Below, in pieces: positions 3,683-24,660 of a stretch of 32,201 nt of DNA. Source of the stretch: Candidatus Omnitrophota bacterium (lineage in GTDB: Bacteria > Omnitrophota > Gorgyraeia > Zapsychrales > Zapsychraceae). Under the pieces are notes generated by a model. It was given only the letters and a program-made list of their open reading frames with translations, searched no databases and was not told the origin of the DNA. The DNA lies in contig JADFZM010000010.1 in NCBI GenBank assembly GCA_015232535.1, positions 1 through 32,201 on the forward strand. The letters run 5' to 3'. The position numbers and the translations under genes were made by a program. Positions within the stretch are counted from its first letter, which is position 1. Each line of letters opens with the position of its first letter.

Positions 3683-3690
3683 TGAAATAG

Positions 3691-4094: not shown

Positions 4095-4252
4095 ATGATA
4101 TACTTTCAAAAAACCCCTAAGGAAAACGCTTTCTTTAACGCGAATTCCTGATAAAACACGCCACGGAAGTATCAGTCTAACTAAATTTGGTTTCTTCTAT
4201 TTCTAACCTTTTTATTTCTCTATGCGGAAATAAGAAAACGGAGGGATGGAAC

Positions 4253-7200: not shown

Positions 7201-10200
7201 TGTATCCGCAACAGCTTTGATGCTAGGATTACTTGAAGATGTAAATTCCGCTAATGAGGAAGCTGACAGTTTAATGGATTTATCTACTGAAAGATTTGTT
7301 TTGAGGCAGTCTTTGCCGGACAGCGATACAAAAGACATCGCAATGTTGAGTAATGGCAGTTTGCAATCGAGGGATTATGGTAATTTGATCGAGCTTTCTT
7401 ACGCCGCAGATGGACAAACTCGAAGAAGCCCGGTAGTTGCGTCGATAAATAAGCAGGACGATACGACATTCCTAGCTAGCCCCGGGGATACTATCGATGA
7501 AATGGATTTGAATTTGTCATTACGTAAGTCGTATTATAAAACCTTAATAGAGTTCCTTTATGAGCAGTCGCTAAAAACAGGAGAGATGATAACCTTAAAA
7601 GATTCATTTGATCCAAATTTCTTTAGGTATTTTTTGCAGGGTCAAGATAGCGATTATAAAACTATAAAAGGTATTCCATATGCAAAAGAATCTAAGTTTG
7701 ATTTTGGTAATATTGAAGGACGGCGGTTATTGCGCGGCTTAGGTATGGAAAATCAGCCGCCGCTGTTTAGTTTTGAATTTAAGAAAAAAGGGGAAGACAA
7801 GACATTTGTCCTTACTTTTAAAAAGATGGAAGACGGCTCAACGGCTTTTAGGGTTATTCCCAAGAAAACAGTTATGGCCTTTGGTTATGGAACAATATCT
7901 TCCCAAGGTGTTTGGGAATTAGCCAAAATGGGCTTTGAAGTTATAGCTGCTAATCGTAGTGCCAACACAAATGCTCAATTGGCAATACCGCAAGGATTTA
8001 AGGTTGTTCCTTTAAACAAAGATGGCATACAAGCTTTCGTGAATAAAGGTTGGTTAGATGCCGAAGATCCTAAAACCGCGATAGATTATTTAGAGGAAGG
8101 GAATATTGATTTGATCGTTGAAGGCCTCGATGGTAAAGCCGAACAGGTTGTTGTGGATTCTAAAAAAAGGCCGGTTTTAGGCCCGGACGGAAAAGTTTTA
8201 ACCGAACTTCCGGCAGAAAATCCGAATGGATGGACTTTGTCAAGGAAGAAAACGACTATCTCTGCAGTTTATCAAGCGGAAGTCTTTAAGAAATATGGAG
8301 TTCCGGTACTGTTCCAGGGGTCAAATGACTCAAAAGTTGTTGCTGATGGTTTTATCTCAGAAACTTATATGATGGAATTAGCCGGTGACACTTTTGAGGC
8401 TTTTTCCAACCAACAGTTTATTCATATAATATCTTGTAACACCACTAAAGAAGCATATTTAAGAGCAACCTTACTCGATATGCCTGACCTTGATGATCAA
8501 AAATCAGATATCAGGCTAATATCGTTAAGAAGAGCGGGTGACCCAGGCAAGCAAGGCAGCAAATTAGCTCAGGGCGGTTATGCCGCTGAAATCGAAGCTG
8601 CTTACCATCACAATAGGGATTTAGCCGCGTTTCTAAAACAACCATATTTGAAGGCCAGTCGTTGGTTGAAGAAATTAACCGCAGCTAAGACCCCGAAGAG
8701 TGTGGAAGTTGCCTATTCAACCGGAGCATTAATGGGACCGCACGCAAAATTTCATGAGGGCTTAGAAACAAGCTCACTTGTAAAGAAAGACGGTACCTTT
8801 TATACTGCCGATGAGGTAAAAGCCTATTTGGAGAAAAATAATAGGATGGCGGTTGTTGGCCCGGAACCGGGGAAGAATTTTAACGCAGAAGATGTTTTAA
8901 ACGTGTTGGCCAACAGGATGCAGCAAGTTCAAACGCAAGTACCTATTGTATACGTATTCCAAAAGGCAACAGGTGTTGGCATTATATCCTTAACGCCCCA
9001 GGAATCAAACGTAGAGCCAAACATTGTCGCAACTGGCCTCTTAAGGACGGGTGTAATTAAGGATGTTAAACGCGCTAACAATGAAACCAATTTATCCATG
9101 AACATCGCTTGGCAGAAACGAATGTATGAACAATTTATGCCGGATGCGGAAGTCGTAAGAGTGCGTGAGCTGGAAGCCCAAAAGGCGAAAGAAAAGGCCT
9201 TTCCCAAAGCAACGCTTGCCAGCTTGCCGGATAACTGGTATAGGGGAAAGGTAATTGCTATACGAGTTGATTATAATGTGCCGATGGAAGGAAATACTAT
9301 TATGGATGATACGAGAATTAGTGCGTCTCTTCCAAGTATCAAATATGCCACCTCCCGCGGCGCAAAAGTTGTTGTAATGTCGCATTTAGGCCGGCCGAAG
9401 GGCAAAGTAGTCCAGAAATTATCATTAGCTCCTGTAGCTAGCCGGTTAAGTGAATTAATTGACGAAAAAGTCACATTTGTCAGTATAACTACCATGTTTG
9501 ATGCCGATTCGGAAATCGAAAAGATGAGAAATGGAGAAGTAATTGTTTTGGAGAACACCCGTTTTAATGCAGATGATGAAATTTTGGCAAAGGCTGAAGA
9601 TAATCTTGCCGCTGCAAGAAATTCGGGTGTCGGTGTCGTAGAGGCGCAGGCGGCATATGATTATGCACTGTCTAGAAGCGCGGTTCTTTCTCGACGATTA
9701 TTCGCAGGCGCGGATGGCTATGTCTTCGATGGTTTTAGCGTTGGTCACCGGGCCGATGCCGATGTCATCGGAGCATCTTATCTTAATATTCCGCGTGTTG
9801 CCGGATTTTTGGTTTTGGAAGAATTTGGCAATCTTAATGTTAGCATGGAGAATTCTGATACAGTTTTTATGGGGGGCAAAAAAGTATCTGATAAAATACG
9901 GATCCTTAGAAACCTTCTTTCTAAAGATAGAGTTAAAAAAATTCCATTAGGCGGAGCTATGATTAATGCCTTTTTCGCTGCCGATGGTATTGTTTTGGAT
10001 CAAAGAAACTTAGGGATTGACGACGGGGATATCGCTATAGCCCGGGAATTGAGGCAAGACACAAGGATAATGGATAAAATAGTGTTGCCGGTTGATGTTG
10101 TTGTCGCCAGCAGCCTGGAAGAGGGAGCAGTATTTAAAGTTGTAAAAATCAGTGATATACCCAATGATATGATAGTCGTTGACATTGGGCCAGAAACAGT

Positions 10201-12640
10201 TGCTATGTATAAGAAAATAGCTCAAGAGTCAGAATATATTTTCTGGCAAGGTCCGATGGGGGTATTTGAACTTTCCTTCGCCGGGGAAGGAACAAGAGGG
10301 CTCGGTGAGGCAATTGTTGAATCAAATGCATATAAAGCCGCTGGGGGTGGAGATACAATGGCGGCTATCAAGAAATTTGGCTTAAAAGAAGAATTTGACT
10401 ATGTTTCAAAAGCCGGAGGGGCCGCTACCGAGTATATGGAAGGCAAGGTATTACCGGGTATTTCGGTGCTAACCGATGCGGCTATGTTATCAAGCTTGGG
10501 AGGTACAAAGCTTGCCAAATTCGAAGCTTCCGAAACCATGGATTCGAGGGATAATCCGACGATCCGTCAGGTTGTTATTCTCGGTGACGGTACTATCGGA
10601 GAAGCCAGTATTCCTTCCGGAGCATCAACTGGAATACATGAAGCTTTGGAATTGCGCGACGGAGATAAGTCGTACAAGAACGGCAAAGGCGTCTTTACCG
10701 CAATAAAAAATGCAAATGAAGTTCTCGCGCCTATAGTCGCAGGAATGGACGCGACTAGCCCGACATTCCAGAAGGATTTGGATGCGAAGTTGCTGGAAGC
10801 GGATGGCACGCCCAATAAGAGTAAATTAGGCGCTAATGCCATATTGGGTATTTCAATGGCTTCTGCTGTTGCCGCGGCAAAAGCGCAAGGGATACCTCTT
10901 TATCAATATCTTAACAATGAAATGGGCAAGCATGGGCAGAAAGTGCAAATGACTTTGCCTGTTCCGATGTTCAACGTATTGAATGCCGGTTCTCACGTCC
11001 AAGTTCCCAAAGGGCAGCCGAAACCGGATATTCAGGAATTCATGATCATGCCCGTCGGAGCACAATCTTTCGCTCAAGCTTTTGAGTGGGGAAAAAAGGT
11101 ATTTGCGATATTGGGAGTGGTCTTGAATGAAAAAGGTTTGGGGCCGACCGGTGAATTCGATTATGGAAATGAAAAGGGTTATAAGCCGGCTTTTAGATCG
11201 AACAAAGAAGCCCTGGAAGCTGTTATAGAAGCGGTTCAAAGAGCGGGAATACCTCTAGGCAAGGACGGAATAGTTATCGCGCTTGACCTTGCCGCGAGCG
11301 AATATTACAACAAAGACGGAATTGAAGACGATACTTATTATTGGGAAGGAAGAAGGGTTCCCGGAGACGAATATTTGGATATAATTATCGGCATGGCCAA
11401 AGAATATTCGCAAATATTCTCCTTCGAGGATGCTTTCTCGCAGGATGATTGGTCAAGATGGCAGAAATTCACCGAAGCCGTAGGCAAGCAAAATCAAATA
11501 GTCGGTGACGATATATACGTAACAAATCCGGAGAGATTGGCCCGCGGAATTCAGGAAGGGGCTTCAAACTCGATACTGATCAAGTTAAATCAAATAGGGT
11601 CAGTTTCCGAAACGATACAGACAATTGCTGATGCCAATAAAGCCGGTTATACAAATGTCATCTCGCATCGCTCCGGCGAAACGGAGGATTCTTTTATCGC
11701 TGATTTGGCTGTAGGGACAGGTACCAATATGATCAAAACCGGCGGTTTGGCAAATTGGAAAAAAGGGCCAAAAGGCGAAACCGGAATGGAGAGAATGGCG
11801 AAGTATTCGCGGCTTGTTGAAATTGAAGAAGAATTAGGCGAAGCGGCAGTATACGCCGGTAAATTCTTCCGCGAAGGCCAAGGTTTACAAGCCAAGAAGG
11901 TTGATTTTGCGGTACTATCGGATCGGCAAAAAAGACAAATTAATAATATGTCAAGATTTGAAGAAATTCTTACTCGGTTGCGCCCTTCACTCCCTAATTC
12001 CGCATCTGGAGAGAGAAGGGACATAGATTTAGCTGAAGGTAATCTAAAAAGACTTTATAATTTTTGGACATCTCTACAAGAAGACTTGCAATTGGCATTA
12101 GATAAAGAAAATGATCTTCGAAAAGGTGGTTATATTGTTAATCCTGAGTATCAACTGACTTATTACGAGCAAAGCATACTAAATCCTTTACGGGAAGATC
12201 AGGCCCATTATAGGGGTTTAATTGAACGTATCGAGAATTTGATTAGGCCTTGGGTTATACAAAATCAAGATAAAAGCTATTTCTTTTATACAATTCGGGA
12301 TCAACTGTATTTTTTCAAATCTTTATTGCCGCAAACCGATCCGGCAATGATGGGAGGTAAAGGGCAAGAGAGAAACGTCGGTGGTATAAACTTAAACCCG
12401 GCATTATTGGACATGCAGATTAAAAGAGACGGCAATGGTGTTCCCTTGCCGATTAATATGCAGCAGATCCAAAACATGCAGATAGAAGGGTTTATTCCGG
12501 TTATTATCAACATTATGCCGGTTCAAAACTTGCCTTTGCTTTTGGGGTTAGAAAAAGGCAATTCACTCAAGGATTTCTCAAGAGTGGAAAAAACAATGCC
12601 GCGGGAGAAGATAGATAAACTATCATATTCGATCAATTAA
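4253..12640 (+). CDS. Giant exported glycolytic fusion: 2 x GAPDH-like, PGK, enolase
   Basis: This 2795-residue protein starts at the ATG at 4253, preceded by GGAGGG at 4240-4245; an in-frame TTG at 4187 lacks such a site. A signal peptide occupies about residues 1-37 (SPSYAQ at the cleavage region). A module I do not recognise, residues ~40-420, follows. Two related units of about 600 residues come next, each ending in an archaeal-type (class II) GAPDH fold. The second has the catalytic SCNTT (C1395) and RRAGDP motifs; the first contains no cysteine. Phosphoglycerate kinase (~1655-2076) shows RVDYNVPM, SHLGRPKG, ENTRFN, GGKKVSDKI, GPMGVFE and GGGDT. Enolase (~2082-2541) shows SGASTG, LDLAASEYY, FEDAFSQDDW, VGDDIYVTN, IKLNQIG and SHRSGETED, so the known catalytic residues look intact. 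A C-terminal module (~2541-2795) ends in a Pro/Leu-rich segment. Phosphoglycerate mutase is missing. Whether the enzymes work outside the cytoplasm is unknown. Confidence 0.85.
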   Translation: MSNFFTGKNFRLTRKVTSLIIAISFIFTSVVSPSYAQVISQSIANLPLPGSMVTVSGGFEPTIIKGLTIHPENPLMFDFIIDPGESGLYGEDFKAESTKLVKYFLAALTVPADELWVNLSPYEKDRIVPDGFGNTGMGRDLLAQDYILKQLTSTLVYPETDLGKKFWDRVYEKSKKLYNTTEVPLNTFNKIWIVPEKAVVFESNNNAFVIDSHLKVMLEEDYVALNKNLNVKKFGLDGIDKRQAEAYSATTTQMIKDVLIPEIEQEVNTGENFAALRQVYNSVILASWYKDNLKNSLLGQIYADKNKIAGIDLKDKTEKEQIYNRYVDAFNKGVYNYIREDYDSSTKTIIPRKYFSGGTNIDVTGVRRDVTNRNISSADRQKADKAMVSSSGASRVQISLLDVGRNPSSGAQETLNLKARGVRGPESGMSRADAMMLSALNNKADIKINEGRTTVNLGHGDLALIENKGGILFANAVTNHPTQYKKALLDFMHQTALETNRMTVLSEKNKALELEALLRGNQGSYETIKGIPNAKGYTEALGDLILTRRILGLGQEKVFQLEINRKGENGTSVLTIKENKDGTTAFRVLPKKTVLAYGYGLVNSRVTQQLLKLGLNVIAANSLADNNARRAINQGVKIVPLDAASVKSHVVAGEAGAGFINAAEAVTALDYLKGNKGLEKIDLVLVDLQEPAASVVVDNNGSLVLEGGKVLTALPMDAKARGLKLVKKAIPQSVVHQAEILEQYDVPVVITQVENQNLIPGAIIETGTMQTANASISGLNLKTVLLPNSDATAQSALLSHLFGIEGLADKGTKIDFTNMRTGAENADGKYRISPSGFADYIPSTAIANNVIANWSQTPVTRNWLGKFMPSQNPSAVAYAYDTDITYGAESEFDIIIGSITSAKADGSFVKAKELKDRLAADRRFAVIGPKAGKKFTPAHVVEVLQREKEKVQTGVVPVWLDDTETGIGVVALVSPLLVEVPNAVSATALMLGLLEDVNSANEEADSLMDLSTERFVLRQSLPDSDTKDIAMLSNGSLQSRDYGNLIELSYAADGQTRRSPVVASINKQDDTTFLASPGDTIDEMDLNLSLRKSYYKTLIEFLYEQSLKTGEMITLKDSFDPNFFRYFLQGQDSDYKTIKGIPYAKESKFDFGNIEGRRLLRGLGMENQPPLFSFEFKKKGEDKTFVLTFKKMEDGSTAFRVIPKKTVMAFGYGTISSQGVWELAKMGFEVIAANRSANTNAQLAIPQGFKVVPLNKDGIQAFVNKGWLDAEDPKTAIDYLEEGNIDLIVEGLDGKAEQVVVDSKKRPVLGPDGKVLTELPAENPNGWTLSRKKTTISAVYQAEVFKKYGVPVLFQGSNDSKVVADGFISETYMMELAGDTFEAFSNQQFIHIISCNTTKEAYLRATLLDMPDLDDQKSDIRLISLRRAGDPGKQGSKLAQGGYAAEIEAAYHHNRDLAAFLKQPYLKASRWLKKLTAAKTPKSVEVAYSTGALMGPHAKFHEGLETSSLVKKDGTFYTADEVKAYLEKNNRMAVVGPEPGKNFNAEDVLNVLANRMQQVQTQVPIVYVFQKATGVGIISLTPQESNVEPNIVATGLLRTGVIKDVKRANNETNLSMNIAWQKRMYEQFMPDAEVVRVRELEAQKAKEKAFPKATLASLPDNWYRGKVIAIRVDYNVPMEGNTIMDDTRISASLPSIKYATSRGAKVVVMSHLGRPKGKVVQKLSLAPVASRLSELIDEKVTFVSITTMFDADSEIEKMRNGEVIVLENTRFNADDEILAKAEDNLAAARNSGVGVVEAQAAYDYALSRSAVLSRRLFAGADGYVFDGFSVGHRADADVIGASYLNIPRVAGFLVLEEFGNLNVSMENSDTVFMGGKKVSDKIRILRNLLSKDRVKKIPLGGAMINAFFAADGIVLDQRNLGIDDGDIAIARELRQDTRIMDKIVLPVDVVVASSLEEGAVFKVVKISDIPNDMIVVDIGPETVAMYKKIAQESEYIFWQGPMGVFELSFAGEGTRGLGEAIVESNAYKAAGGGDTMAAIKKFGLKEEFDYVSKAGGAATEYMEGKVLPGISVLTDAAMLSSLGGTKLAKFEASETMDSRDNPTIRQVVILGDGTIGEASIPSGASTGIHEALELRDGDKSYKNGKGVFTAIKNANEVLAPIVAGMDATSPTFQKDLDAKLLEADGTPNKSKLGANAILGISMASAVAAAKAQGIPLYQYLNNEMGKHGQKVQMTLPVPMFNVLNAGSHVQVPKGQPKPDIQEFMIMPVGAQSFAQAFEWGKKVFAILGVVLNEKGLGPTGEFDYGNEKGYKPAFRSNKEALEAVIEAVQRAGIPLGKDGIVIALDLAASEYYNKDGIEDDTYYWEGRRVPGDEYLDIIIGMAKEYSQIFSFEDAFSQDDWSRWQKFTEAVGKQNQIVGDDIYVTNPERLARGIQEGASNSILIKLNQIGSVSETIQTIADANKAGYTNVISHRSGETEDSFIADLAVGTGTNMIKTGGLANWKKGPKGETGMERMAKYSRLVEIEEELGEAAVYAGKFFREGQGLQAKKVDFAVLSDRQKRQINNMSRFEEILTRLRPSLPNSASGERRDIDLAEGNLKRLYNFWTSLQEDLQLALDKENDLRKGGYIVNPEYQLTYYEQSILNPLREDQAHYRGLIERIENLIRPWVIQNQDKSYFFYTIRDQLYFFKSLLPQTDPAMMGGKGQERNVGGINLNPALLDMQIKRDGNGVPLPINMQQIQNMQIEGFIPVIINIMPVQNLPLLLGLEKGNSLKDFSRVEKTMPREKIDKLSYSIN
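5530..9105 (+). repeat. Tandem ~1.8-kb duplication encoding two GAPDH-like units
   Basis: Two diverged in-frame units lie about 1830 bp apart, near 5530-7275 and 7340-9105. Paired anchors include YETIKGIPNAK with YKTIKGIPYAK, DGTTAFRVLPKKTVLAYGYG with DGSTAFRVIPKKTVMAFGYG, and FAVIGPKAGKKF with MAVVGPEPGKNF. Each unit is a ~180-residue lead-in domain plus a Rossmann/GAPDH-like domain. Only the second keeps the catalytic cysteine. Confidence 0.8.
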
Positions 12641-12712: not shown

Positions 12713-12871
12713 AAAGTTCCTTCAAGTCAACCAGCCCAATATTTTTCTCAAACCAAGCCCAAAGGCGAATTTGTTTATCCTGCTAAACCCCGTCGACAAA
12801 AGCTAATAATCGACGAAATTCAAGAAACCGTTTTCGCAAAATGGCCCCAAGGCTCTTATTTCATTCGATAG
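12713..12871 (+). pseudogene. Remnant reading frame containing the left copy of a flanking repeat
   Basis: An open frame of 52 codons runs from just after a stop at 12710 to a TAG at 12869, with no start codon or ribosome-binding site. Its 3' part, encoding KPRRQKLIIDEIQETVF, recurs in decayed form at 17320-17380 as PRPRR-stop-KLIISEI-stop-ETSF. The DNA between 12768 and 12829 matches that copy at roughly 51 of 62 positions. I read both as leftovers of the same unidentified coding sequence. The CGTCGA/TCGACG inverted pair inside it (12790-12816) may be chance. I do not recognise the protein. Confidence 0.45.
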
Positions 12872-12892: not shown

Positions 12893-12990
12893 AATTGAAA
12901 AAGGCAAACCTATTGAAAGATAGGGACGCAAAGCTTCGGGTCTAAAGGTAAAGAGATTGAAATCGCCTATGATCGCCGGGCCGTTCGAAG
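12893..12990 (+). promoter_or_regulatory. c-di-GMP-I (GEMM-I) riboswitch upstream of the peptide locus
   Basis: A near-textbook GEMM-I aptamer. GGCAAACC (12903-12910) runs into a P2 stem CCTAT/ATAGG with a GAAA tetraloop (12909-12924). GGGACGCAAAGC follows, then the receptor half TCTAAAG (12941-12947). A short P3 leads to CTATGA and the 3' core GATCGCCGGGCC (12971-12982). The position matching Vc2 G20 appears to be G, so c-di-GMP rather than cGAMP is expected; this uses a remembered alignment. The expression platform is the strong terminator at 13046-13087, directly before the precursor peptide gene. A weak extended -10 (TGGTATCTT, 12875-12883) is the only promoter candidate I see. Confidence 0.92.
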
Positions 12991-13045
12991 TAGAATTCGG
13001 ATAGACCGAAACAAAAAAGAAGTAGTGATTTCTTGCTAATGACAG

Positions 13046-13087
13046 CCGAGCCGCCAAAGACATGATATTTGGTGGCTCGGTTTTTTT
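13046..13087 (+). terminator. Terminator / expression platform of the second riboswitch
   Basis: A 13-bp stem (13046-13058 with 13068-13080, one G-U pair) and seven T (13081-13087) lie between the aptamer and the peptide gene. The position fits a transcriptional riboswitch: expression of the downstream genes requires readthrough here. Confidence 0.9.
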
Positions 13088-13121
13088 AATTTCTTATTTG
13101 TTAAGAAGAAAGGAGCGGCAA

Positions 13122-13316
13122 ATGAAAACAATTATGAAAGCCCAATTAAAACCAACCAGAACAAAAGAGGGAATTGTTTATTTGGAAGATGATTCTATTC
13201 AAATTTTTGCAGGATTTACTCAATCATCTGGAAATAAAATTAGAGTCGAGAATTGCGGAGGAGGATCAGCGCCTTCAGACAGCACAAGAGTGGTCATTTG
13301 TTTGGATAAACCATAA
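13122..13316 (+). CDS. Putative RiPP precursor peptide
   Basis: This 64-residue peptide starts at 13122 with AGGAG (13111-13115) 6 bp upstream. An in-frame ATG at 13062 lies inside the terminator stem and is not credible. The N-terminal half is polar and basic (MKTIMKAQLKPTRTKEG). The C-terminal part has NCGGGSA (residues 44-50) followed by DSTRVVIC and ends LDKP, with cysteines at 45 and 60. The GG is a plausible leader cleavage site for the C39 peptidase of the exporter encoded downstream, which would leave a core of about 16 residues with one cysteine. The next genes encode a radical SAM/SPASM protein and that exporter, and a decayed copy of the peptide follows at once. I know no named family for it. 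The precursor role is inferred from context; thioether or another crosslink is one possibility. Confidence 0.75.
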   Translation: MKTIMKAQLKPTRTKEGIVYLEDDSIQIFAGFTQSSGNKIRVENCGGGSAPSDSTRVVICLDKP

Positions 13317-13337
13317 GCGTGTCACAAACAAAATAAA

Positions 13338-13525
13338 ATTAAAACCGTTATAAATGCTAGATTAAAGCCAGCGAGAACAAAAAAAGGAATTGTGTAATTA
13401 TAAGAGTATTCTCTTAAAATTGCAGCCGGATGATTTCAGTCCGCCAAAGCAAAGTCTAGAGTTGAGCAAATGTTGAGGGTGGTTCTGCGCTAAAAGATAG
13501 CACAAGAGTTGTAATCTGCATTTAA
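13338..13525 (+). pseudogene. Decayed second copy of the precursor peptide gene
   Basis: Aligned with 13122-13316, this stretch encodes KTVINARLKPARTKKGIV from 13341, matching the start of the intact peptide. The start codon is ATT instead of ATG, a TAA interrupts at 13395, and at least one frameshift follows. In another frame the end reads NVEGGSALKDSTRVVICI and stops at 13523-13525, matching the intact NCGGGSAPSDSTRVVICL. No Shine-Dalgarno sequence is visible. The glycine pair, DSTRVVIC and the second cysteine are preserved; the first cysteine is a valine. It is probably not translated. Confidence 0.8.
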
Positions 13526-13594
13526 AGTTTGGCAATAGTTCCGTGGTTTTATCAGAATTATTTATTTGTTATAAGACCATGGGTTCATTTAAAC

Positions 13595-14980
13595 ATGAAA
13601 GCTTCACAATTTAATATAGCGATACCTCATTATGGGAGCACATTGCTTTTTAACACTTTAACAATGGCTCTCGCGGAGTTTCGTCCGGAAGAATATTGCC
13701 GGATAGAATCTTTGTCTTCCAATAGCCGATGCGATGATTGCGGTAAAGAAGAATGGATTAAGGAGCTTTGGGGCCAGGGATTTATAATAGATGATGACTT
13801 TAGCGAGATAGAGTATTTAAGAAATAAGTTTGAAAAAGCAAAACAGGATTCCGAAACACTCGCGATGGTCATATGTCCTACGCTTGAGTGTAACTTTTCT
13901 TGTCTTTATTGTTACGAGTGCCATTGTCCTGCAGAAATGAATCAAGAAACGGAAGAGTCTATAATACGTTTTATTGATCAGCATGTTCAACAATATAAAC
14001 GTTTAGATGTAACTTGGTTTGGTGGCGAACCTTTATTAAATTTTCCAACAATTGAAAGATTGTCCTTTCTCTTAATGGAAATATGCAGAAAAAATAACGT
14101 TAAATATTCTGCTATTCTAATAACAAACGGATTCTTGCTTGAAAAGCCTATTCGCGATAAATTATCTTCGCTTTGCATAAAAGGAGTTCAATTTAGCATA
14201 GACGGACCCGCTGAAATTCATGATAAAAGGCGCTTCTTAAAGGATGGGCAACCCACGTTTTATAAAGTCTTTAATAACTTTGTTGATTTTGTTAATTTAA
14301 CAGAAGGGATAAGTGTTGGACTGCGCATTAACGTTGACAAAAGGAATCTAAACCGCGTTGGAGATTTGGAACCTTTATTCGATTTGATTAATAGCAGGAT
14401 TCTTCCGGACAAAATAAAGAATACTTTGCTCAACGTGTGCTTTGGCCTGGTTACTCCGACGAACAATAAACCGGACTCTCGGGGTAACAACTATTACAGT
14501 TATGAGGAATTTCTCCGATTAATCTTGGCGGTTCAACATAAGTATAACAATAAGTATTTCTTTATTCTAAAGCCACAACTTGGAATTTTGCCTGGGAGAA
14601 TGATCCCTTGTGGTGTTATCAAAGAAAATGTGTTTATTGTTGACGGGAAGGGTGATTTATACAAATGTCTGGATCATTGTGGAATGAAGTCCGAAGTTGT
14701 CGGGAACATTATTCCCCGGGGTTCGGTTAATGAAAGGATTTCGCAATGGGATAACTACAGCCCTTTTGAAAACACGGATTGCGTTGAATGCAAAATTCTG
14801 CCTTTATGTATGGGGGGGTGTCCCAAAAAGAATATGGAAATGAAAAGAGGCAAGAAGAATGCGTCTTGCTTGCCGCAACTGAACCAAATCAGAGATCAAA
14901 TTGAACAGTTATATCAACACTACAAAATGAGCCCACAGAGACAAGAAACAAATGCTCCCCTGCCGGACTGTCCATTGTAA
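13595..14980 (+). CDS. Radical SAM/SPASM peptide maturase
   Basis: A 461-residue protein is predicted if it starts at the ATG at 13595; an in-frame TTG at 13529 would extend it by 22 residues, and neither site has a clear Shine-Dalgarno. The radical SAM motif CxxxCxxC is C99, C103 and C106 (CNFSCLYC), which binds the [4Fe-4S] cluster that cleaves S-adenosylmethionine. WFGGEPLL and QFSIDGP fit the barrel. The C-terminal SPASM region (about 340-430) has CLDHC and C396-V-E-C399 ... C405-M-G-G-C409 followed by a later cysteine, expected to hold auxiliary clusters. The N-terminal FNTLTMALAEF stretch resembles the leader-binding end of peptide maturases. It lies between the precursor and the exporter and probably modifies the peptide. 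The exact chemistry cannot be read from the sequence. Confidence 0.87.
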   Translation: MKASQFNIAIPHYGSTLLFNTLTMALAEFRPEEYCRIESLSSNSRCDDCGKEEWIKELWGQGFIIDDDFSEIEYLRNKFEKAKQDSETLAMVICPTLECNFSCLYCYECHCPAEMNQETEESIIRFIDQHVQQYKRLDVTWFGGEPLLNFPTIERLSFLLMEICRKNNVKYSAILITNGFLLEKPIRDKLSSLCIKGVQFSIDGPAEIHDKRRFLKDGQPTFYKVFNNFVDFVNLTEGISVGLRINVDKRNLNRVGDLEPLFDLINSRILPDKIKNTLLNVCFGLVTPTNNKPDSRGNNYYSYEEFLRLILAVQHKYNNKYFFILKPQLGILPGRMIPCGVIKENVFIVDGKGDLYKCLDHCGMKSEVVGNIIPRGSVNERISQWDNYSPFENTDCVECKILPLCMGGCPKKNMEMKRGKKNASCLPQLNQIRDQIEQLYQHYKMSPQRQETNAPLPDCPL

Positions 14981-15027
14981 TTGTCTAATCAGTAAAAATA
15001 AAAAAAATAAAGTTCAAAAGCCATTGA

Positions 15028-15036
15028 TGGTATAAT
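15028..15036 (+). promoter_or_regulatory. Possible extended -10 promoter before the exporter gene
   Basis: TGGTATAAT (15028-15036) lies 32 bp before the ATG of the ABC exporter gene, in an A-rich gap of 87 bp. No convincing -35 exists, so this is a weak call. It would allow exporter expression independent of the riboswitch. Confidence 0.35.
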
Positions 15037-15067
15037 TATTATCTGTGCGAAAAATAGTAAAAAGTCT

Positions 15068-17278
15068 ATGCCAAAAACATTAACGAAGATAAAGAAACAT
15101 ATTTTGTATCTTAAATATCTTTTTTTAAGACGCTATCCTTGCATTTTGCAAAGCGACGAGAATGATTGTGGCGCGGCCTGTTTTGCGACTATTGCCCGGC
15201 ATTATGGATATTATATGAATTTGGAACAGGCCAACGAGCTTGTCCAAGTGCATCAAATGGGGCAAAGCGTCTGGGACTTAAAAGCGGCTGCCTTGGAAAT
15301 CGGGTTAGATGGATATCCGGCCAAAGCCGTTTATTCTGCTTTGAAAGAAATAGAATGGCCGTTTATTGCTCATTATGGCGGTGAAATTGCCCATTTTGTT
15401 GTTGTTTATGAAGTCTATGATGGTTTTATTGTTATCGGAGATCCAGCTCGCGGAATAGAAGTCCAAAGCAAAGAGGAGTTTCAGGAAAAATGGAGCGGAT
15501 ATTTAGTGGAATTTATGCCAACGCAAGCGTTCAAAAAGGCTGTTGTGACTATTCCCGCTTATCGTTTATTTTGCCGGATTATTTTGGAATATCTTCCTTT
15601 GCTTCGTTGGATTCTTGTTTTGTCTGTTTTCTTGTCTTTGGCAGGGATGGCTTCATCCTATTTTGTTAAGGTTGTCATTGATAATATTATTCCCCAAGAA
15701 ACGGTCTCTGCGCTAACCGCTTTAACTTATTTGCTTATTTCAATATATTTCTTTCAGTTTATTTTAATCATCTTCCGAGGATGGATTCAAAGTCACATTG
15801 GTCGCGAGATCGAAGAAAATAATCTCTTTAAATATTTTGACCATATTTTTAGGCTACCGCTCAAGTTTCATGAGGTTCGCTCAACAGGGAATCTTTACAA
15901 CAGGATGCTTGATATCCAGAGGATTCGGATTGCAATTAGCGAAAGCCTAGTTTCCCTGTTTAGTGATTTTATTTTTATGATAGCGGCTTTTACCGTAATG
16001 TTTTTTTATAATGCTCAGTTGGCAATGTGGGTCCTTTCATTTATTCCTGTCCTAATTCTTGTGATTTTTGTTTTCAGTCTTCCTATCCGCCGACAACAAG
16101 GGATTTATATGGGGAAAACGGGAGAGGCTGCGAGTTCTTTTATTGATGCTCTAAATGGAATTTCCGAACTCAAAATATTCTCAGCAGAAGAACATTTTAT
16201 TTCACGATTGAAAAAGAAAACGCAGGAATATATCCAAAGTAATTTCAATTTAAATATTCTCTTAACAGTGTCTTCAGCAATGAGCTTGCTGGGAGTGTCT
16301 CTTCTTACAGTTTTCTTGCTTTCCCATGGCGCCATGCTTGTTTCCGGAGGCAAAATAACTCTGGGAGAAATGATGTTTTTCTTTAGCTTGGTCGCGTTTG
16401 TCGTAAGCCCGATTCAGCGAAGCTCCAATGTCTTTTTTCTGGTTCAAGACGCTTTGGTTGCGATTGAACGAATATATGCTATTTGTGAAATCAAGTTAGA
16501 AAATAAGGCATTTTGTGGTCAGAAAATAGTAGAAGAGATGAAAGGAAAGATCGAATTTAAAGATGTTAGTTTTGGCTATCGCAAGAAGAGAAATATTTTA
16601 GAAAATATAAATTTCATCGTTAATCCGGGAGAAATTCTTGCTATAGTTGGGGAAACGGGTGTTGGGAAAAGCACTTTGACTAAACTTATTTGCGGGTTTT
16701 ATATGATCGACAGCGGGGATATTCTTTTTGATGATGTTTCTCTCAAAGAGCTTGACATGCTGTCTCTGCGAAAAAATATCTCGGCAGTCTTTCAAAGGCC
16801 GCATCTTTTTAACGAGAGTATCTTTCATAACATAACCATGGGAGGGCCTTTCCCTCTGGAGCAAGTGGAAAAAATGTTTCAGCAGAAAAAAGCATTTCAG
16901 TTTATTGATAACTTGCCCCAGAAGTATTTGGCGAATGTCTTTTCGGGGGGAAGCAACTTCTCGGAAGGGCAAATTCAGCGAATTGCTATTTTACGGGCAT
17001 TGGCGCGAAACAGCCCTGTTCTTATTTTCGATGAGGCAACAAGCAATCTTGACAGTCAAACTGAAGAAACGATTTTAGAAATACTTAGAAAAGAAAGAAA
17101 AAATAAAACAACAATTATTGTAGGGCATCGCCTTAGCACAATTTCCTTGGCTGATAATATTATTGTTTTAAAAGATGGCAAGATTGCCGAATCAGGAAGC
17201 TTAAAAAGATTGATGGAGAAAAAAGAATATTTTTACCGCTTATTTCACGCACAGCTGGAAGAAAAAGGTCAAAGCTAA
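15068..17278 (+). CDS. C39-peptidase ABC exporter (PCAT-type bacteriocin/RiPP transporter)
   Basis: This 736-residue inner-membrane protein is predicted to cut the leader from a peptide and export the product. An N-terminal C39 peptidase (about 25-150) has Q28, C34 in DENDCGAAC, H109 and D125 in IGDPA, the full catalytic set. Five or six hydrophobic transmembrane segments cover about 165-450. The nucleotide-binding domain shows Walker A GETGVGKST (528-536), a signature FSEGQ in place of LSGGQ, Walker B VLIFDEATSNLD (~650-661) and the H-loop GHRLST. C39 peptidases cut after double-glycine sites, matching the GG of the peptide at 13122. The start has no Shine-Dalgarno. It is the last gene of the peptide locus, and a repeat remnant follows within 50 bp. 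Confidence 0.93.
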   Translation: MPKTLTKIKKHILYLKYLFLRRYPCILQSDENDCGAACFATIARHYGYYMNLEQANELVQVHQMGQSVWDLKAAALEIGLDGYPAKAVYSALKEIEWPFIAHYGGEIAHFVVVYEVYDGFIVIGDPARGIEVQSKEEFQEKWSGYLVEFMPTQAFKKAVVTIPAYRLFCRIILEYLPLLRWILVLSVFLSLAGMASSYFVKVVIDNIIPQETVSALTALTYLLISIYFFQFILIIFRGWIQSHIGREIEENNLFKYFDHIFRLPLKFHEVRSTGNLYNRMLDIQRIRIAISESLVSLFSDFIFMIAAFTVMFFYNAQLAMWVLSFIPVLILVIFVFSLPIRRQQGIYMGKTGEAASSFIDALNGISELKIFSAEEHFISRLKKKTQEYIQSNFNLNILLTVSSAMSLLGVSLLTVFLLSHGAMLVSGGKITLGEMMFFFSLVAFVVSPIQRSSNVFFLVQDALVAIERIYAICEIKLENKAFCGQKIVEEMKGKIEFKDVSFGYRKKRNILENINFIVNPGEILAIVGETGVGKSTLTKLICGFYMIDSGDILFDDVSLKELDMLSLRKNISAVFQRPHLFNESIFHNITMGGPFPLEQVEKMFQQKKAFQFIDNLPQKYLANVFSGGSNFSEGQIQRIAILRALARNSPVLIFDEATSNLDSQTEETILEILRKERKNKTTIIVGHRLSTISLADNIIVLKDGKIAESGSLKRLMEKKEYFYRLFHAQLEEKGQS

Positions 17279-17319: not shown

Positions 17320-17380
17320 AATTTGTCATCCTCCTAGACCCCGTCGATAGAAACTAATAATCAGCGAAATCTAAGAAACC
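17320..17380 (+). repeat. Right copy of the ~60-bp direct repeat flanking the peptide locus
   Basis: 61 bp match 12768-12829 in the same orientation, with about 10 substitutions and one gap. The shared core includes CCCCGTCGA and CTAATAATC. The reading frame of the left copy is broken here by two stops. The copies lie 4.5 kb apart, on both sides of the riboswitch, peptide, maturase and exporter genes. Confidence 0.65.
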
Positions 17381-17424: not shown

Positions 17425-17961
17425 TCCGTAACATTATTCTTGAGCAATAGGCTAAAGTTGAAAGTCAACGAAGCCAAGAGTGCTGTTGGCCGGCCATGGG
17501 AGAGGAAGTTCTTGGGATATACCATGACGATGGACAAGGAGCCGAGATTGAGGGCATCGATACAGTCCATTGGAAAGTTAAAGGATATGCTAAGGGCGAT
17601 ATTCCGACGTGGGCGGGGGCGTAACATAGGACGACTCATAACAGAGGAACTGAATCCGGTCATACGAGGCTGGAGTAATTACTTTAGCTTCACGAGGGTT
17701 AAGAAGATTCTGGAAGAGTTGGACTATTGGATACGGCGGAAGTTGCGTTGTATTCTATGGCGTCAGATGAAGCGTGCAAAGACACGAGGCAAGCGGCTGA
17801 TGCAACAAGGACTCGATAAACAACGAGCCTGGGAATCCGCAACGAACGGACGAGGGGCATGGGGGAACGCCGGAGCATCGCATATGAATCATGCGTATCC
17901 GATAACTTACTTCAACAAACTTGGATTAGTAAACCTCATGACGAAACTGGGGGACTCTTAA
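17425..17961 (+). pseudogene. Group II intron reverse transcriptase/maturase, C-terminal fragment
   Basis: The frame is open from 17425, after a stop at 17422, to 17961. It begins with VTLFLSNRLKLKVNEAKSAV, the junction after the palm domain, and continues through KFLGYT, RGWSNYF, the WIRRKLR maturase (X) domain and a GLVNLM C-terminus. No HNH endonuclease is present. About the first 250-300 residues of a normal protein of this family are missing. The remaining frame has no internal stop, so the deletion may be fairly recent. The small-X-domain form without endonuclease suggests a bacterial class C-like intron, but I cannot assign the class firmly. Confidence 0.85.
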
Positions 17962-17970
17962 AACCTTTAT

Positions 17971-18006
17971 GAACCGCCGTATACGGAACCGTACGTACGG
18001 TGGTGT
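17971..18006 (+). ncRNA. Group II intron domain V-like hairpin
   Basis: A 9-bp lower stem (17973-17981 with 17996-18004, one G-U) continues through a 2-nt CG bulge (17994-17995) into a 4-bp upper stem with loop GAAC. This is the domain V shape, and it sits just downstream of the maturase fragment as expected. A domain VI-like stem with an unpaired base follows at 18010-18036. Confidence 0.75.
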
Positions 18007-18049
18007 AAAAGGACAGCAGGAGTAATCTTGCTTCCTATTTTAATTTTCC

Positions 18050-19567: not shown

Positions 19568-19780
19568 ATGGATAAAAAACAACACCCAAAACGATTTATT
19601 AAAGTTAGTATAAGAAAGCAACGACTATGCCTGCGGGAAGGCGGCCGAATCATTAAAGAGTATCCTATTTCGACATCAAAATATGGAATTGGAAATAAGT
19701 CCGGAAGCAATAAAACGCCTTTGGGATCGCATAGAATTATCAGCAAGATCGGTCGAAATGCGGACTCGGGATGTCGATAA
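19568..19780 (+). pseudogene. L,D-transpeptidase (YkuD) N-terminal fragment
   Basis: 70 codons encode the start of a YkuD-type L,D-transpeptidase domain: IKVSIRKQRLCLREGGRIIKE, then YPISTSKYGIGNKSGSNKTP and LGSHRIISKIG. These enzymes crosslink peptidoglycan through a C-terminal HxxxxxxSHGCxR motif. That part, including the catalytic cysteine, is missing: the frame leaves the family after KIG and stops at 19780, overlapping the untranslated lead of the next gene. It is a truncated remnant, probably joined to its neighbour by a deletion. No Shine-Dalgarno is visible, and the ATG follows the terminator T tract. Confidence 0.75.
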
Positions 19781-19824
19781 AGAAGGAAGAGTTTAAAGAA
19801 AATATTAAAATACAGGAGCAGAAA

Positions 19825-22800
19825 ATGAAGAATATCTTAAAGCAGAAATGGGTTTGGATCACGGTGCTATTTGCGGCCATCAATATCGCCGGATTAATGA
19901 AGATCAGCTTAATCGTCGAGGGCAGAGGAGATGCAAGCTTATTTAAAATTGTTCAGCAGAAAATTGCCGGATTCACACTGCCTTTCCTTAAGATGGGGAA
20001 GTCTGTGCAGAATTATGTCGAGCAATTGGGATTCGCGGTAAATAAGATTGAGCCTACGGTTTCTGGTGCTGAGGCCGGAATTTCTATAGAGCTTAATAAA
20101 TCCGTTGATCCAGCAGCAATTAAGGGGTATGTCGAGGTTAAGCCGGAGACGAATTTTTTTATAGAGACTGATTATTCTGGGATCAAGCTCAAAGGAGATT
20201 TTAAGCCCGGCAACACTTATACGGTGACGGTTTTAAAAGGAATGCCTTCTACGGAGGGTGGCAAGTTGGGCGAAGATTATGAACAGACCGTTACGATCTC
20301 TGATTATGATCCGACTGCTTATTTTAAGACGCCAGGCATGTATATGTCGCTTAAAGGCCAACAGACTATTCCTGTTGAATATGTGAATTTAGATAAATTG
20401 AAATTCAAGGCGCATAAAGTTTATGATAACAATGTTGTCTACATGCTAAACAATATGAACGAATACAGATTCCCAGATGATCTTGGGGTGGATGTATTTG
20501 AAAAAGAGTTTTCTCTCACAACAAAAGAGCCAAATCAGATCAAAGAAACATTTATTAACCTTAAGGAGCTTTTGCCGACGGAATCAAGAGGCCTTTATTA
20601 TTTAACTATTGCTAATGCAGACACAAATTATTACGGTGAATCTTCCAAGTTGATCTTAGCGACTGATATCGGCATTGTTGCTAAACAATCGGATTCTGAA
20701 CTTTTAGTGTGGCTTAGTTCATTAGCCGACACATCGCCAATTTCAAATACGACGGTTAAAGTGTTCAGTAAAACCAATCAGCTTCTTTATCAAGGCGTCA
20801 CGGATGAGAAGGGAATCGTTCAATTTAAGGATGTGGATTTTTCGGGAAATAAGAAGCCGTTTGTTATTACGGCTTCCAATGATAAGGATAGTTCATTTTT
20901 AGAGATTGAGAAGAATGTTCTTACGGAAACTGCTTTTGATATACAAGGCCGGCCATATCTTTCTAGCGGTTATGAAGCGTTTTTGTATACAGACCGTGGC
21001 ATATATCGTCCTGGTGAGAAAATTCATTTGCGCGCAATTATAAGAGGAAAGGGAGTTACCCTTCCTGAAAGTTTCCCGGTTTCGGTTGTAATTATGCGCC
21101 CGGATGATAAAGAATTCAAGAAGTTGTCGGGAGTATTATCGAAGTTTGGAACGATTGATCTGGATATCGATATCCCTGATTACGCGTTAACCGGGGCGTA
21201 CGAAGCGAATGTTTTATTACCGGGCAATGATAAGTCGCTTGGTTCTATGAAATTTAACGTTGAGGAATTTATTCCGGATAATCTCAAAGTGGTTGTCAAA
21301 ACTTCGCAGGATCGTTTTAAGATTTCTGAAGCCATACCTCTTACAGTTAAAGTACAGGAATCTTTTGGTGCACCGGCTGTGGGACGAAACGTTTCAGTTT
21401 CTTATAAACTGAAGCCAATTAACTTTGAACCAAAAGGTTATAAAGATTTTTCTTTTACCGATGATACAAAAGAATATACGCCCAAGACTATTGAGGTTGG
21501 AGAAAGCGTCACGGATAAAGATGGGCAGGCTCTTTTTACAGTTAATCTTCCTAAAGATATTAGTGTCCCATCATCGACGGAAGTTGCGATTAAGACAGTT
21601 GTTAAAGAATTTGGTGGACGGGCAGTAACCAATTATGAGGTAAAGAAAGTTGATCCTTATCCTTATTATATTGGCATTCGCCAAGAGAAGGAAGGTTTTG
21701 GTTTAGCTAATGAGCCTATGAAATTTGATTATGTCGCGCTTTCTTCTGATGAAAGCCAGATTGTTTCAGGTGATCTTAAAGTTAAGGTGTGTAAGATCGT
21801 TTGGAATACTATCCTTAAGAAAGATGAAAACGGAAAGTTTAATTACATCACGGAGAGCAAAGAAGAACCCTTGTCAGAAGAAACAATTAAGTCTAACGGC
21901 GAGAAAGGTTCATATAGCTTTACGCCAAAGGATTATGGCGATTTCATCGTTCGAATAAGCGGCGTTGATGCTTCTTCACATACCGTGAGTTTAAAGTTTT
22001 ATGTTTCGGACCCTACATCGTCTCAGCCTTGGGCGATGGAGCGACCGGATAGAATAGAATTAAAGTTTGATAGAGAAAAATATGCTGTGGGTGATACTGC
22101 TAAGCTTTTAATCAAGTCACCGTTTATGGGAAAAGCCTTGATCACTTGTTCAACAGATAAGCAGGTTTATATAAATTCAATCGATCTTACCAGCCTCACT
22201 CAAGAAATCTCTATTCCTGTCGATGTAACCTTTCAGCCAAACGCTTATTGCGCCGTTTCTGTTATCCGGCCGGTAGCGTATGAAGACCGCTGGAGCGCGC
22301 ATCGTGGTTTTGGGATAGCGCCTTTGATGATGGATAATTCATCAAACGAGGTAAAAATTGCTGTAGATGTTCCAGAAAAGGTTGAGCCCGGGCAGAAGAT
22401 CAAGCTCAATATTTCAGGATCTGGTACGACGGAGCCAATGGAATTATCCGTTGCTTTGGTCGATGATGGCATATTACGTTTGACTGGATTTAAAACCCCG
22501 AAGCCGTTTGATTTCTTTTATGGTAAAAAGGCCAATGGATTTTTAACCGCGGATATTTATTCGCTTCTTGTTCCGGAGTTTACGGATAAGAAAGTCGGGG
22601 CTGACTCATCACCTAGCGGTGATAAATCGGGTTATGATGCGAAGCATGTCAATCCTATTAATGCCAAGAGAGTCAATCCTATTTCTCTATGGCAAAGCAA
22701 TGTGGTGACGGATGCAGAAGGTAAAGCATCGGTTGAGTTTACGATCCCGGATTTTACCGGAACACTTAAATACATGGTCGTTGCCGCAGGGGATTCAAAA

Positions 22801-24660
22801 TTCGGTAACGCAGAAGGAGATGTGAAGTCTGTTTCACCGATCATGCTTGTGCCAACTTTATCGCGATTTTTATCAATGAATGATCAATTTATTTTACCAG
22901 TCGAAATTTTTAATACCACCGGTCAAGATGGAAAAGTTTCCGTTTCTGTTGAAACATCGGCTGGTTTTGAGATTCAAGGAGAAAAGACAGTTGACGTGGA
23001 TGTAAAGAACGCCGGACAAAGCCTGGTATCGTTTCGTCTTAAATCACCAGTTGTGCCGCAAAAAGGAGAGATCAAGATTTCAGCTATGATGGGTGATAAA
23101 AAAGTTATGCGGTCATTTGAAATTCCTATAAGACCGCCGGTTTCATGGACGTCTACTTCAGGAGTTGGAGAAGTCAAAGCCGGAAACCAAGCTTCTTTTA
23201 AAGTCCCGGGGAATTGGATTGTTGGGACAGGGAAATATAACTTGTCTATTCAGCCTTTGCCGACGCTAAAGCTTGCTGGAGGGCTTAAATTCCTTTTACA
23301 GTATCCTTACGGCTGTGTTGAGCAAGCAACCTCGACGGCTTATCCATTGCTTTATTTAAAGAATCTCGCCGCTAAGGTTGATTCCTTAAAGTATAAACCC
23401 GAAGCCATAACAAATATTATTAATTCGGGTATTGAACGTGTTTTATCTATGCAGACATCAAGGGGTGGTTTTGCGTGGTGGCCGGGAGAAAGGGCAGAAT
23501 ATCTATGGGGAAGCGCTTATGCTATGGATTTTTTAGTTGAGGCTGATAAGGCTGGTTACGCGGTTCCTTACATTGCTAAAACAGCCGGACTCAATTATCT
23601 TGAGACTATTTTATCTGGATCAAAAGATGATTTTACTTTAGAAGCAAAAGCATATAGCGTTTATGTTCTTGCAAAGGCAGGACGCGTTAAATCGTCATGG
23701 ATTCGTAAACTTCAAGAGAAAATTAACGACCTTCCTGAATATTCACGTTTTCATATTGCAGGTGCGTTAGCGATTATGGGGGACAGGAAATCTGTCGATG
23801 AAATTCTAGCTCAAGGATTGGATGATTCAAAAGTCGAGAATGATCAAAGCGGCAATCTTAATTCCTATGTCCGCGAACAGGCTTTGGCTTTGTCTATTTA
23901 TTTGGATACGGCGCCGAATAGTCCGTTTGTTCCGGTTCTTATTAAGCGCATTGAAGATTCTATGAAGGACGGGCGATGGGGAACAACTCAAGAAAACGGT
24001 ATGGCGCTTATTGCGCTTGGCAAATATGCTAAGTTGATGGAAGACAAAGAAGTTGATTTTAAAGGATCAATATTTGTAGATGGTAACAAGGTTATGGATT
24101 TTGATAATAAGTCGAATGCGGATTTAACTGATTTGGATTTAGGCGGAAAAGAAATCCGTATTGATGTTTTAGGGAAAGGCAGCGCCTATTATTATTGGAG
24201 CGCTGAAGGAGTTCCTGTTTCTGATAAAGTTGAGGAGAAAGATTACGGTCTGGTCGTCAGAAGAACGTTCCTTTATAAAGACGGCAAGCCGGTTGATATG
24301 ATGAATCTCAAGCAAGGGGATGTTTTGATGGTGGATATTGCAATTCAAACAAATAATGAGTTAAAGAATCTAGTTATTGAAGATCTTCTGCCTGCGGGTT
24401 TTGAGATCGAGAATCCTCGAATCAGCACAGCTGAGAAAATTGATTGGCCTCAAGGGAGCATAATTGAGCCCGATCACATGGATATTCGTGATGATCGTCT
24501 AGTGCTTTTTACCGACGCTAATGGGAAGTGCCATTTCCGCTATGTTGTCAGAGCGGTCAATAAGGGCGAGTTCATTTTGCCAGCTATTAAAGCGGAGTTG
24601 ATGTATAACCCGAAGGTTTACAGCATAAGCGGACAAGGAAATATAAAAATTGGGGAGTAA
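19825..24660 (+). CDS. Bacterial alpha-2-macroglobulin-like protein
   Basis: 1611 residues from the ATG at 19825, chosen because AGGAG (19814-19818) stands 6 bp upstream; an in-frame start at 19771 lacks one. Bacterial alpha-2-macroglobulins sit in the periplasm and are thought to trap invading proteases through a reactive thioester. The thioester motif is present as YGCVEQ (C1164 to Q1167). TDRGIYRPGE (about 389-398) is the MG2 hallmark, and WQSNVVTDAEGKASVEFTIPDFTG marks the macroglobulin domain before the thioester region. An N-terminal hydrophobic stretch (about 8-30) serves as signal or anchor. The stop overlaps the pbpC start by 1 bp, the classical pairing in which trap and peptidoglycan repair are thought to work together. 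Confidence 0.93.
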   Translation: MKNILKQKWVWITVLFAAINIAGLMKISLIVEGRGDASLFKIVQQKIAGFTLPFLKMGKSVQNYVEQLGFAVNKIEPTVSGAEAGISIELNKSVDPAAIKGYVEVKPETNFFIETDYSGIKLKGDFKPGNTYTVTVLKGMPSTEGGKLGEDYEQTVTISDYDPTAYFKTPGMYMSLKGQQTIPVEYVNLDKLKFKAHKVYDNNVVYMLNNMNEYRFPDDLGVDVFEKEFSLTTKEPNQIKETFINLKELLPTESRGLYYLTIANADTNYYGESSKLILATDIGIVAKQSDSELLVWLSSLADTSPISNTTVKVFSKTNQLLYQGVTDEKGIVQFKDVDFSGNKKPFVITASNDKDSSFLEIEKNVLTETAFDIQGRPYLSSGYEAFLYTDRGIYRPGEKIHLRAIIRGKGVTLPESFPVSVVIMRPDDKEFKKLSGVLSKFGTIDLDIDIPDYALTGAYEANVLLPGNDKSLGSMKFNVEEFIPDNLKVVVKTSQDRFKISEAIPLTVKVQESFGAPAVGRNVSVSYKLKPINFEPKGYKDFSFTDDTKEYTPKTIEVGESVTDKDGQALFTVNLPKDISVPSSTEVAIKTVVKEFGGRAVTNYEVKKVDPYPYYIGIRQEKEGFGLANEPMKFDYVALSSDESQIVSGDLKVKVCKIVWNTILKKDENGKFNYITESKEEPLSEETIKSNGEKGSYSFTPKDYGDFIVRISGVDASSHTVSLKFYVSDPTSSQPWAMERPDRIELKFDREKYAVGDTAKLLIKSPFMGKALITCSTDKQVYINSIDLTSLTQEISIPVDVTFQPNAYCAVSVIRPVAYEDRWSAHRGFGIAPLMMDNSSNEVKIAVDVPEKVEPGQKIKLNISGSGTTEPMELSVALVDDGILRLTGFKTPKPFDFFYGKKANGFLTADIYSLLVPEFTDKKVGADSSPSGDKSGYDAKHVNPINAKRVNPISLWQSNVVTDAEGKASVEFTIPDFTGTLKYMVVAAGDSKFGNAEGDVKSVSPIMLVPTLSRFLSMNDQFILPVEIFNTTGQDGKVSVSVETSAGFEIQGEKTVDVDVKNAGQSLVSFRLKSPVVPQKGEIKISAMMGDKKVMRSFEIPIRPPVSWTSTSGVGEVKAGNQASFKVPGNWIVGTGKYNLSIQPLPTLKLAGGLKFLLQYPYGCVEQATSTAYPLLYLKNLAAKVDSLKYKPEAITNIINSGIERVLSMQTSRGGFAWWPGERAEYLWGSAYAMDFLVEADKAGYAVPYIAKTAGLNYLETILSGSKDDFTLEAKAYSVYVLAKAGRVKSSWIRKLQEKINDLPEYSRFHIAGALAIMGDRKSVDEILAQGLDDSKVENDQSGNLNSYVREQALALSIYLDTAPNSPFVPVLIKRIEDSMKDGRWGTTQENGMALIALGKYAKLMEDKEVDFKGSIFVDGNKVMDFDNKSNADLTDLDLGGKEIRIDVLGKGSAYYYWSAEGVPVSDKVEEKDYGLVVRRTFLYKDGKPVDMMNLKQGDVLMVDIAIQTNNELKNLVIEDLLPAGFEIENPRISTAEKIDWPQGSIIEPDHMDIRDDRLVLFTDANGKCHFRYVVRAVNKGEFILPAIKAELMYNPKVYSISGQGNIKIGE

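Follow-up and report, generated by a model that had tools for sequence, protein, structure and literature searches.

On contig JADFZM010000010.1 of Candidatus Omnitrophota bacterium (Gorgyraeia; Zapsychrales; Zapsychraceae; assembly GCA_015232535.1), a riboswitch aptamer for cyclic di-guanosine monophosphate (c-di-GMP), an intrinsic terminator and the genes for a 64-amino-acid (aa) peptide, a radical S-adenosylmethionine (SAM)/SPASM protein and a C39-peptidase ATP-binding cassette (ABC) exporter follow each other in this order and on one strand at positions 12893-17278 of the analyzed stretch of 32,201 nt (the window). This arrangement is probably a small operon of the type that yields ribosomally synthesized and post-translationally modified peptides (RiPPs), which was probably acquired horizontally, lies within the c-di-GMP riboswitch regulon of its host and would deliver a modified, exported peptide under the control of an OFF switch. 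The evidence base is a single contig of one metagenome-assembled genome (MAG; 83% complete, assembly size 2.2 Mb).

An earlier note on this DNA had placed a c-di-GMP-controlled RiPP locus here. Its coordinates are correct and the anatomy was supported, while the modified, exported signal product is predicted from that anatomy. Four elements had been overlooked by the note, namely a pseudogene copy of the peptide gene, a second c-di-GMP-I aptamer at 3690-3840, a pair of flanking repeats and a group II intron remnant. If the reading is correct, the messenger that governs attached or free-living life would directly control the formation of the peptide, in a host phylum with almost no cultured members.

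Riboswitch leader and switch polarity

The aptamer claimed at 12893 passed the covariance-model check: RF01051 matched 12893-12988 with 68.3 bits (gathering threshold 35; E 5e-14, or 2.3e-13 in the whole genome), which is the second-best score among the 11 aptamers of the genome. It is assigned to 12893-13009 on the forward strand and comprises a P1-P2-P3 core (12893-12982), a 7-bp hairpin inside the P3/P1 junction (12983-13002) and a displaced CCGA (13006-13009), where the extension to 13009 was deduced from leader L004 (contig C206) of the same genome. That leader contains the hairpin as well (region 1580-1605 of L004), and RNAfold gave -5.5 kcal for the hairpin of the window and -7.7 kcal for its counterpart. 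Behind the hairpin, the window leader reads AGACCGAA and L004 reads AUACCGAU.

Of the residues expected in the binding pocket (a G20-type G before P2, an A47-type A after P2 and a C92-type C in the P3/P1 junction), G12903 and the GCAAAG segment are present, and the local 3' half carries the CUAA/UAUG element of P3. The C92-type junction C is a U in the local gap-free alignment; a C is regained only by skipping the hairpin or in a distant 3' half described below. In 25 aligned aptamers, CC is absent from the junction columns only in the window aptamer and in L004. This fits a ligand-contacting C that is displaced rather than lost. A cyclic GMP-AMP (cGAMP)-type switch is disfavoured by the G at the G20-type position, an argument that rests on literature numbering transferred to the Rfam model.

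A terminator before the peptide gene had been correctly recognized by the earlier note, but its stem consists of 15 bp instead of 13. It is located at 13044-13082 (forward strand), is followed by a U tract and has a folding energy of -26 kcal/mol (z -5.8), which was equalled by no shuffled sequence. The stretch at 13040-13059, GACAGCCGAGCCGCC, is a near-copy of the aptamer 3' strand and provides the terminator 5' arm; it is a candidate switching strand. Such copies were found in the window and in L011 and, in weaker form, in L004, whereas leaders L007 and L012 of the same genome have a terminator arm complementary to the aptamer P3 instead. The same scan covered 28 leaders of other genomes and scored no copy among them.

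As the terminator 5' arm copies the aptamer 3' strand, an OFF switch with product formation at low c-di-GMP is favoured over an ON switch and is the most likely polarity judging from the leader sequence. While RNA polymerase makes the leader, bound c-di-GMP would let the local aptamer retain the 5' half, leave 13040-13059 free and thereby allow the terminator to form. Without the ligand, the 5' half would pair with 13040-13059 and the operon would be transcribed.

The opposite polarity requires the ligand-binding fold to use the distant 3' half at 13040-13059, so that the ligand sequesters the terminator 5' arm and the operon is ON at high c-di-GMP. In agreement with this, RF03167 (12894-13059, 62.0 bits, gathering threshold 59, E 1.6e-12) is the member of clan CL00126 that cmscan favours when run over the entire window; in it the aptamer 5' half pairs with this distant half, and the distant half has the conserved junction CC directly, where the local half shows UU in the gap-free alignment. 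However, RF01051 gives the local half the higher score, this half has the P3 element, its CCGA after the hairpin is shared with the paralogous leader L004, and the P3-complementary terminator arms of L007 and L012 represent the usual OFF design. An ON switch is rather unlikely. When the leader was folded at several lengths of transcript, the minimum-free-energy structures gave no decision between the two.

The combination of a hairpin in the ligand-binding junction with a terminator arm that re-creates the aptamer 3' strand may constitute an unusual switch build. It is proposed tentatively, as part of a wider reading that is held as a whole with somewhat less than even confidence.

Putative precursor peptide, maturase and exporter

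The peptide gene (13122-13316, forward strand) is closely preceded by the ribosome-binding site AAGGAG (13110-13115) and followed by a tandem copy (13338-13526, forward strand), which has decayed by loss of the start codon, three in-frame stops and frameshifts. The decayed copy was translated by hand, with X at stops and with frameshifts bridged. Mismatches between the copies affect 14 of 59 first, 8 of 60 second and 29 of 58 third codon positions (chi-square 20.4, p 3.6e-5), a third-position bias that points to protein-level selection in the peptide frame before one copy decayed. A chance origin of the open reading frame (ORF) was ruled out by this codon-position test, and the 64-residue peptide gene claimed by the earlier note is, on this sequence signature, a real one. 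Both copies have kept the N-terminal A-x-LKP-x-RTK-x-GIV, Cys45 and the C-terminal C-x-GGSA-x-x-DSTRVVIC; the C-terminal segment of the putative precursor is CGGGSAPSDSTRVVIC. The peptide contains two cysteines and the motif CGGGS, of which GGSA also occurs in the decayed copy, and no typical upstream hydrophobic pattern was recognized by eye. A structure model of the peptide alone was uninformative (predicted local distance difference test, pLDDT, 41).

According to the earlier note, no RiPP family with this precursor is known, and indeed no Pfam match at E 0.01 and no NCBIfam match at E 0.1 to curated precursor families was obtained. Homologues could not be detected in 32 family genomes (single match at E 0.09), in 384 phylum genomes searched with a two-row profile, among viral contigs or among 12,926 small ORFs of 90 maturase loci (best E 1.3). 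Two matches of the phylum search near E 0.007 were discarded, as they lie in frames of 226 and 360 codons and are at chance level over 384 genomes. In the sample, no other Omnitrophota genome combines a homologue of the precursor with adjacent SPASM and C39 genes, for which reason conservation cannot serve as support in the way the note intended. Loci that lack the peptide and keep maturase and exporter did not arise either, but only because no homologous locus of any kind was found; the relatives in the class belong to a system with CC[WF]PxGT peptides and a non-C39 ABC exporter.

A separate pair of loci, L081 and L106, has small peptides with a Cys-loop-Cys near the C-terminus that match no NCBIfam family and are encoded beside a distinct maturase clade. 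A likeness of the window peptide to these C-terminal Cys-loop-Cys peptides was considered and rejected, being weak, seen by eye and lacking statistical support, with maturases on another branch.

In the interval between the peptide gene and the maturase gene, no terminator was found. The maturase gene (13595-14980, forward strand, 461 aa) was taken to start with the ATG at 13595 and not with the TTG at 13529 given in the ORF list, because relatives align with the same start. The radical SAM domain (PF04055, 5.7e-11) and the SPASM domain (TIGR04085, 47.3 bits, cut-off 27) were both detected. The CxxxCxxC motif is present as CNFSCLYC, with cysteines invariant in 47 sequences (the maturase and 46 relatives). 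The SPASM motif CX2CX5CX3C and further auxiliary-cluster cysteines (CVECKILPLCMGGC) also occupy invariant columns of the 47-row alignment. Named maturase equivalogs remained far below their cut-offs: TIGR04463 reached 246.6 of 525, TIGR04334 (Clo7bot) 246.4 of 600, NF038107 (CefB) 209.1 of 600 and TIGR03974 (SCIFF) 99.7 of 425 bits. A search of the genome contig collection with conserved patterns returned 80 maturase loci, none above 34% identity, and a search of the same collection with the maturase's own peptide patterns returned no homologue. A tree that includes relatives of many phyla places the maturase on a lone, long and deep branch with no supported sister; in it, L070 and L093 from named Omnitrophota contigs cluster with the maturases of the host's class, in keeping with the phylum name Omnitrophota.

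The AlphaFold2 model computed from the 47-row alignment has a mean pLDDT of 87.3 and a predicted template modelling (TM) score of 0.88. Its best PDB matches are CteB structures (5why/5wgg, TM 0.69-0.71 over 465-469 columns, almost the entire chain), followed by anSME and TigE. Residues 1-83 of the model form a beta-beta-beta-alpha-alpha-alpha fold resembling a RiPP recognition element (RRE), for which no RRE profile match was obtained; according to the model, this N-terminus would be consistent with the leader-binding domain of CteB.

The exporter (15068-17278, forward strand, 736 aa) is of the peptidase-containing ABC transporter (PCAT) type and contains PF03412 (8e-31), ABC_membrane (PF00664, 4e-43) and ABC_tran (PF00005, 7e-31) in order. 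Its nearest solved relatives are PCAT1-type exporters (8VP3, E 4e-24), and the catalytic Cys-His-Asp of the C39 domain (DCGAAC, AHFVV, GDP) could be aligned with the PCAT1-type peptidase. The identities that the earlier note gave to the two large genes are thereby borne out by domains as well as catalytic motifs.

In the proposed mechanism, the maturase would use its N-terminal domain to bind the leader of the 64-residue peptide and would introduce a radical link into CGGGSAPSDSTRVVIC. This link is plausibly a Cys thioether like that made by the nearest structural relative, CteB; a thioether from Cys to another residue would be the mark of a ranthipeptide or sactipeptide. Cleavage by the C39 domain, perhaps at GG|S, would then free the product from its leader before export through the ABC part. 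The product may be a signal, an antimicrobial or a surface factor.

Origin, regulon and standing of the operon

The locus is flanked by 62-nt direct repeats (12768-12829 and 17320-17380, forward strand) with about 83% identity over a 53-nt core. This core occurs just at these two places in the assembly, by which a common genome element was ruled out. To the right follows a group II intron 3' remnant (17440-18044, forward strand), which consists of the C-terminus of its maturase (PF08388, 5e-20) and domain V/VI (RF00029, 44 bits at 17972-18044). The G + C content of the three genes is 0.35-0.38 compared with 0.41-0.44 in other contigs read, and a search of 293 class genomes (E 1e-8) yielded no further C39 domain. 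From the repeat unique to the locus, the intron remnant, the low G + C content and the lack of peptide and C39 domain in relatives, it is concluded that the peptide operon was probably acquired horizontally.

Unlike the genes, the riboswitch is likely of resident origin. Of 38 other leaders of the family compared with the window leader, two matched best; one of them is L004, found ahead of a secreted-protein gene in this genome, and its match alone extends beyond the aptamer. c-di-GMP-I matches occur in all 32 family genomes, and several of the aptamers of this genome are located before genes for pilins, pseudopilins and large secreted proteins. Five GGDEF domains are encoded in the genome, and the window itself contains a PilZ gene (3183-3593) and a second c-di-GMP-I aptamer (3690-3840). 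Presence in a pilin and secreted-protein regulon favours a role of the product connected with the switch between the attached and the free-living state.

Several points weigh against the proposed operon. The two cysteines of the peptide are fewer than in several precursors of related maturases, a clear double-glycine leader is missing, the maturase ATG has no good Shine-Dalgarno sequence, and no membrane-fusion or outer-membrane partner adjoins the exporter. The ligand-free minimum-energy fold alone gives neither proposed state cleanly, which leaves the polarity uncertain. As the gene set is common to no relative, the linkage rests on one MAG contig, and the system could be declining, given that one precursor copy of the two has decayed.

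One rival reading is a dying or dead acquisition, in which no product is formed and the intact state of the switch and the genes is due to chance. A pseudogene among two precursor copies, intron debris adjoining the locus and the absence of a close homologue from any relative would suit it. Against this stand the remaining precursor and the 1.4-kb and 2.2-kb genes, which are all open with intact catalytic motifs, as well as the substitutions between the precursor copies, which indicate protein-level selection before the decay, and a dead locus is considered improbable. Slightly less probable again is that the 64-aa protein is not the substrate, with maturase and exporter acting on a peptide encoded elsewhere or the protein being an accessory factor (carrier or immunity): the unclear double-glycine leader and the mostly Cys-rich peptides paired with the nearest relatives of the maturase would agree with this, but the gene is the only small one in the operon and is tandemly duplicated, as precursor genes often are, its product combines two cysteines with a GG and a C-terminal segment that is conserved, and peptides of 40-65 aa adjoin several related maturases (e.g., L049, L051, and L047). 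A c-di-GMP-controlled RiPP operon remains the best interpretation, with good support for its anatomy and with predicted chemistry, export, polarity and role.

In the collections searched, the orphan peptide family and the unplaced maturase branch are new. When the family aptamer model was run over 1.32 Mb, made up of the window and the 90 maturase loci, an aptamer adjacent to a precursor was detected in the window only. c-di-GMP riboswitches are known before genes for adhesins, pili, motility and secreted proteins. A full-text search of open-licence literature retrieved no report joining riboswitch, c-di-GMP, RiPP and radical SAM; a c-di-GMP riboswitch before a RiPP operon was not found there, and the papers in which c-di-GMP riboswitches occur together with bacteriocins or lanthipeptides, in the parts covered, report no such control. 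As far as these searches reach, this would be the first operon of RiPP type seen under a c-di-GMP switch. The system is small, with a leader, one 64-aa peptide, one enzyme and one exporter, and binding, modification and cleavage are each tractable.

Two neighbouring regions of the window deserve mention in their own right. The second aptamer and the PilZ gene precede an ORF of 2817 aa (4187-12640) whose single polypeptide has a signal-like N-terminus, then a region weakly matching glyceraldehyde-3-phosphate dehydrogenase, and both phosphoglycerate kinase and enolase in full length, a giant and very odd glycolytic fusion that is apparently exported. At 19771-26768, an alpha-2-macroglobulin-like protein is followed by a penicillin-binding protein 1C-like protein (read from translations only), a pair known in other bacteria.

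Comparison with known systems

Relatives of the maturase occur in 10 of 293 class genomes (L026-L035) in a different type of locus, which contains a TonB-type receptor, a peptide-binding protein, a small peptide, a radical SAM/SPASM maturase, a non-C39 ABC exporter, a histidine kinase and a response regulator. The small peptides end in CC[WF]PxGT in several of the ten, the maturases are related to geopeptide maturases, and the loci may encode a system that has a receptor of its own and handles a peptide signal or a metallophore. They resemble the window locus in belonging to the same class and in having a related radical SAM/SPASM enzyme adjoining a small peptide, and differ from it by the TonB receptor, the binding protein, the non-C39 ABC exporter and the histidine kinase, with no riboswitch at the peptide.

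CteB, the radical SAM enzyme that matures the SCIFF thioether peptide CteA, offers the same architecture (PDB 5WGG/5WHY), with an N-terminal peptide-binding fold, a radical SAM core and a SPASM domain. The identity in the Foldseek alignment is 17-18%, the SCIFF score is 99.7 bits against a cut-off of 425, and the window peptide has 2 Cys and not a six-Cys pattern. The best-scoring families are TIGR04463, Clo7bot and CefB (247, 246, and 209 bits), which share with the window locus a small adjacent peptide, starting with M-K-x-[IV]-..-KP in several relatives; however, the cut-offs of 525-600 are missed, the window peptide is not Cys-rich and its maturase forms a lone branch in the tree. PCAT1-type exporters (8VP3, 4RY2) likewise carry all three domains (peptidase, membrane and ATPase) on a single chain, whereas the window exporter stays under the bacteriocin_ABC cut-off (436 of 524 bits) and its peptide has no typical double-glycine leader.

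For the switch, the closest parallel is the c-di-GMP-I OFF switch Cd1 of Clostridioides difficile, where the ligand-bound aptamer and the terminator can exist side by side, in competition with an antiterminator (PMC9262584). The same relation is proposed for the window leader and shown for Cd1; unlike in Cd1, the terminator arm of the window is a near-copy of the aptamer 3' strand, and the junction contains an inserted hairpin.

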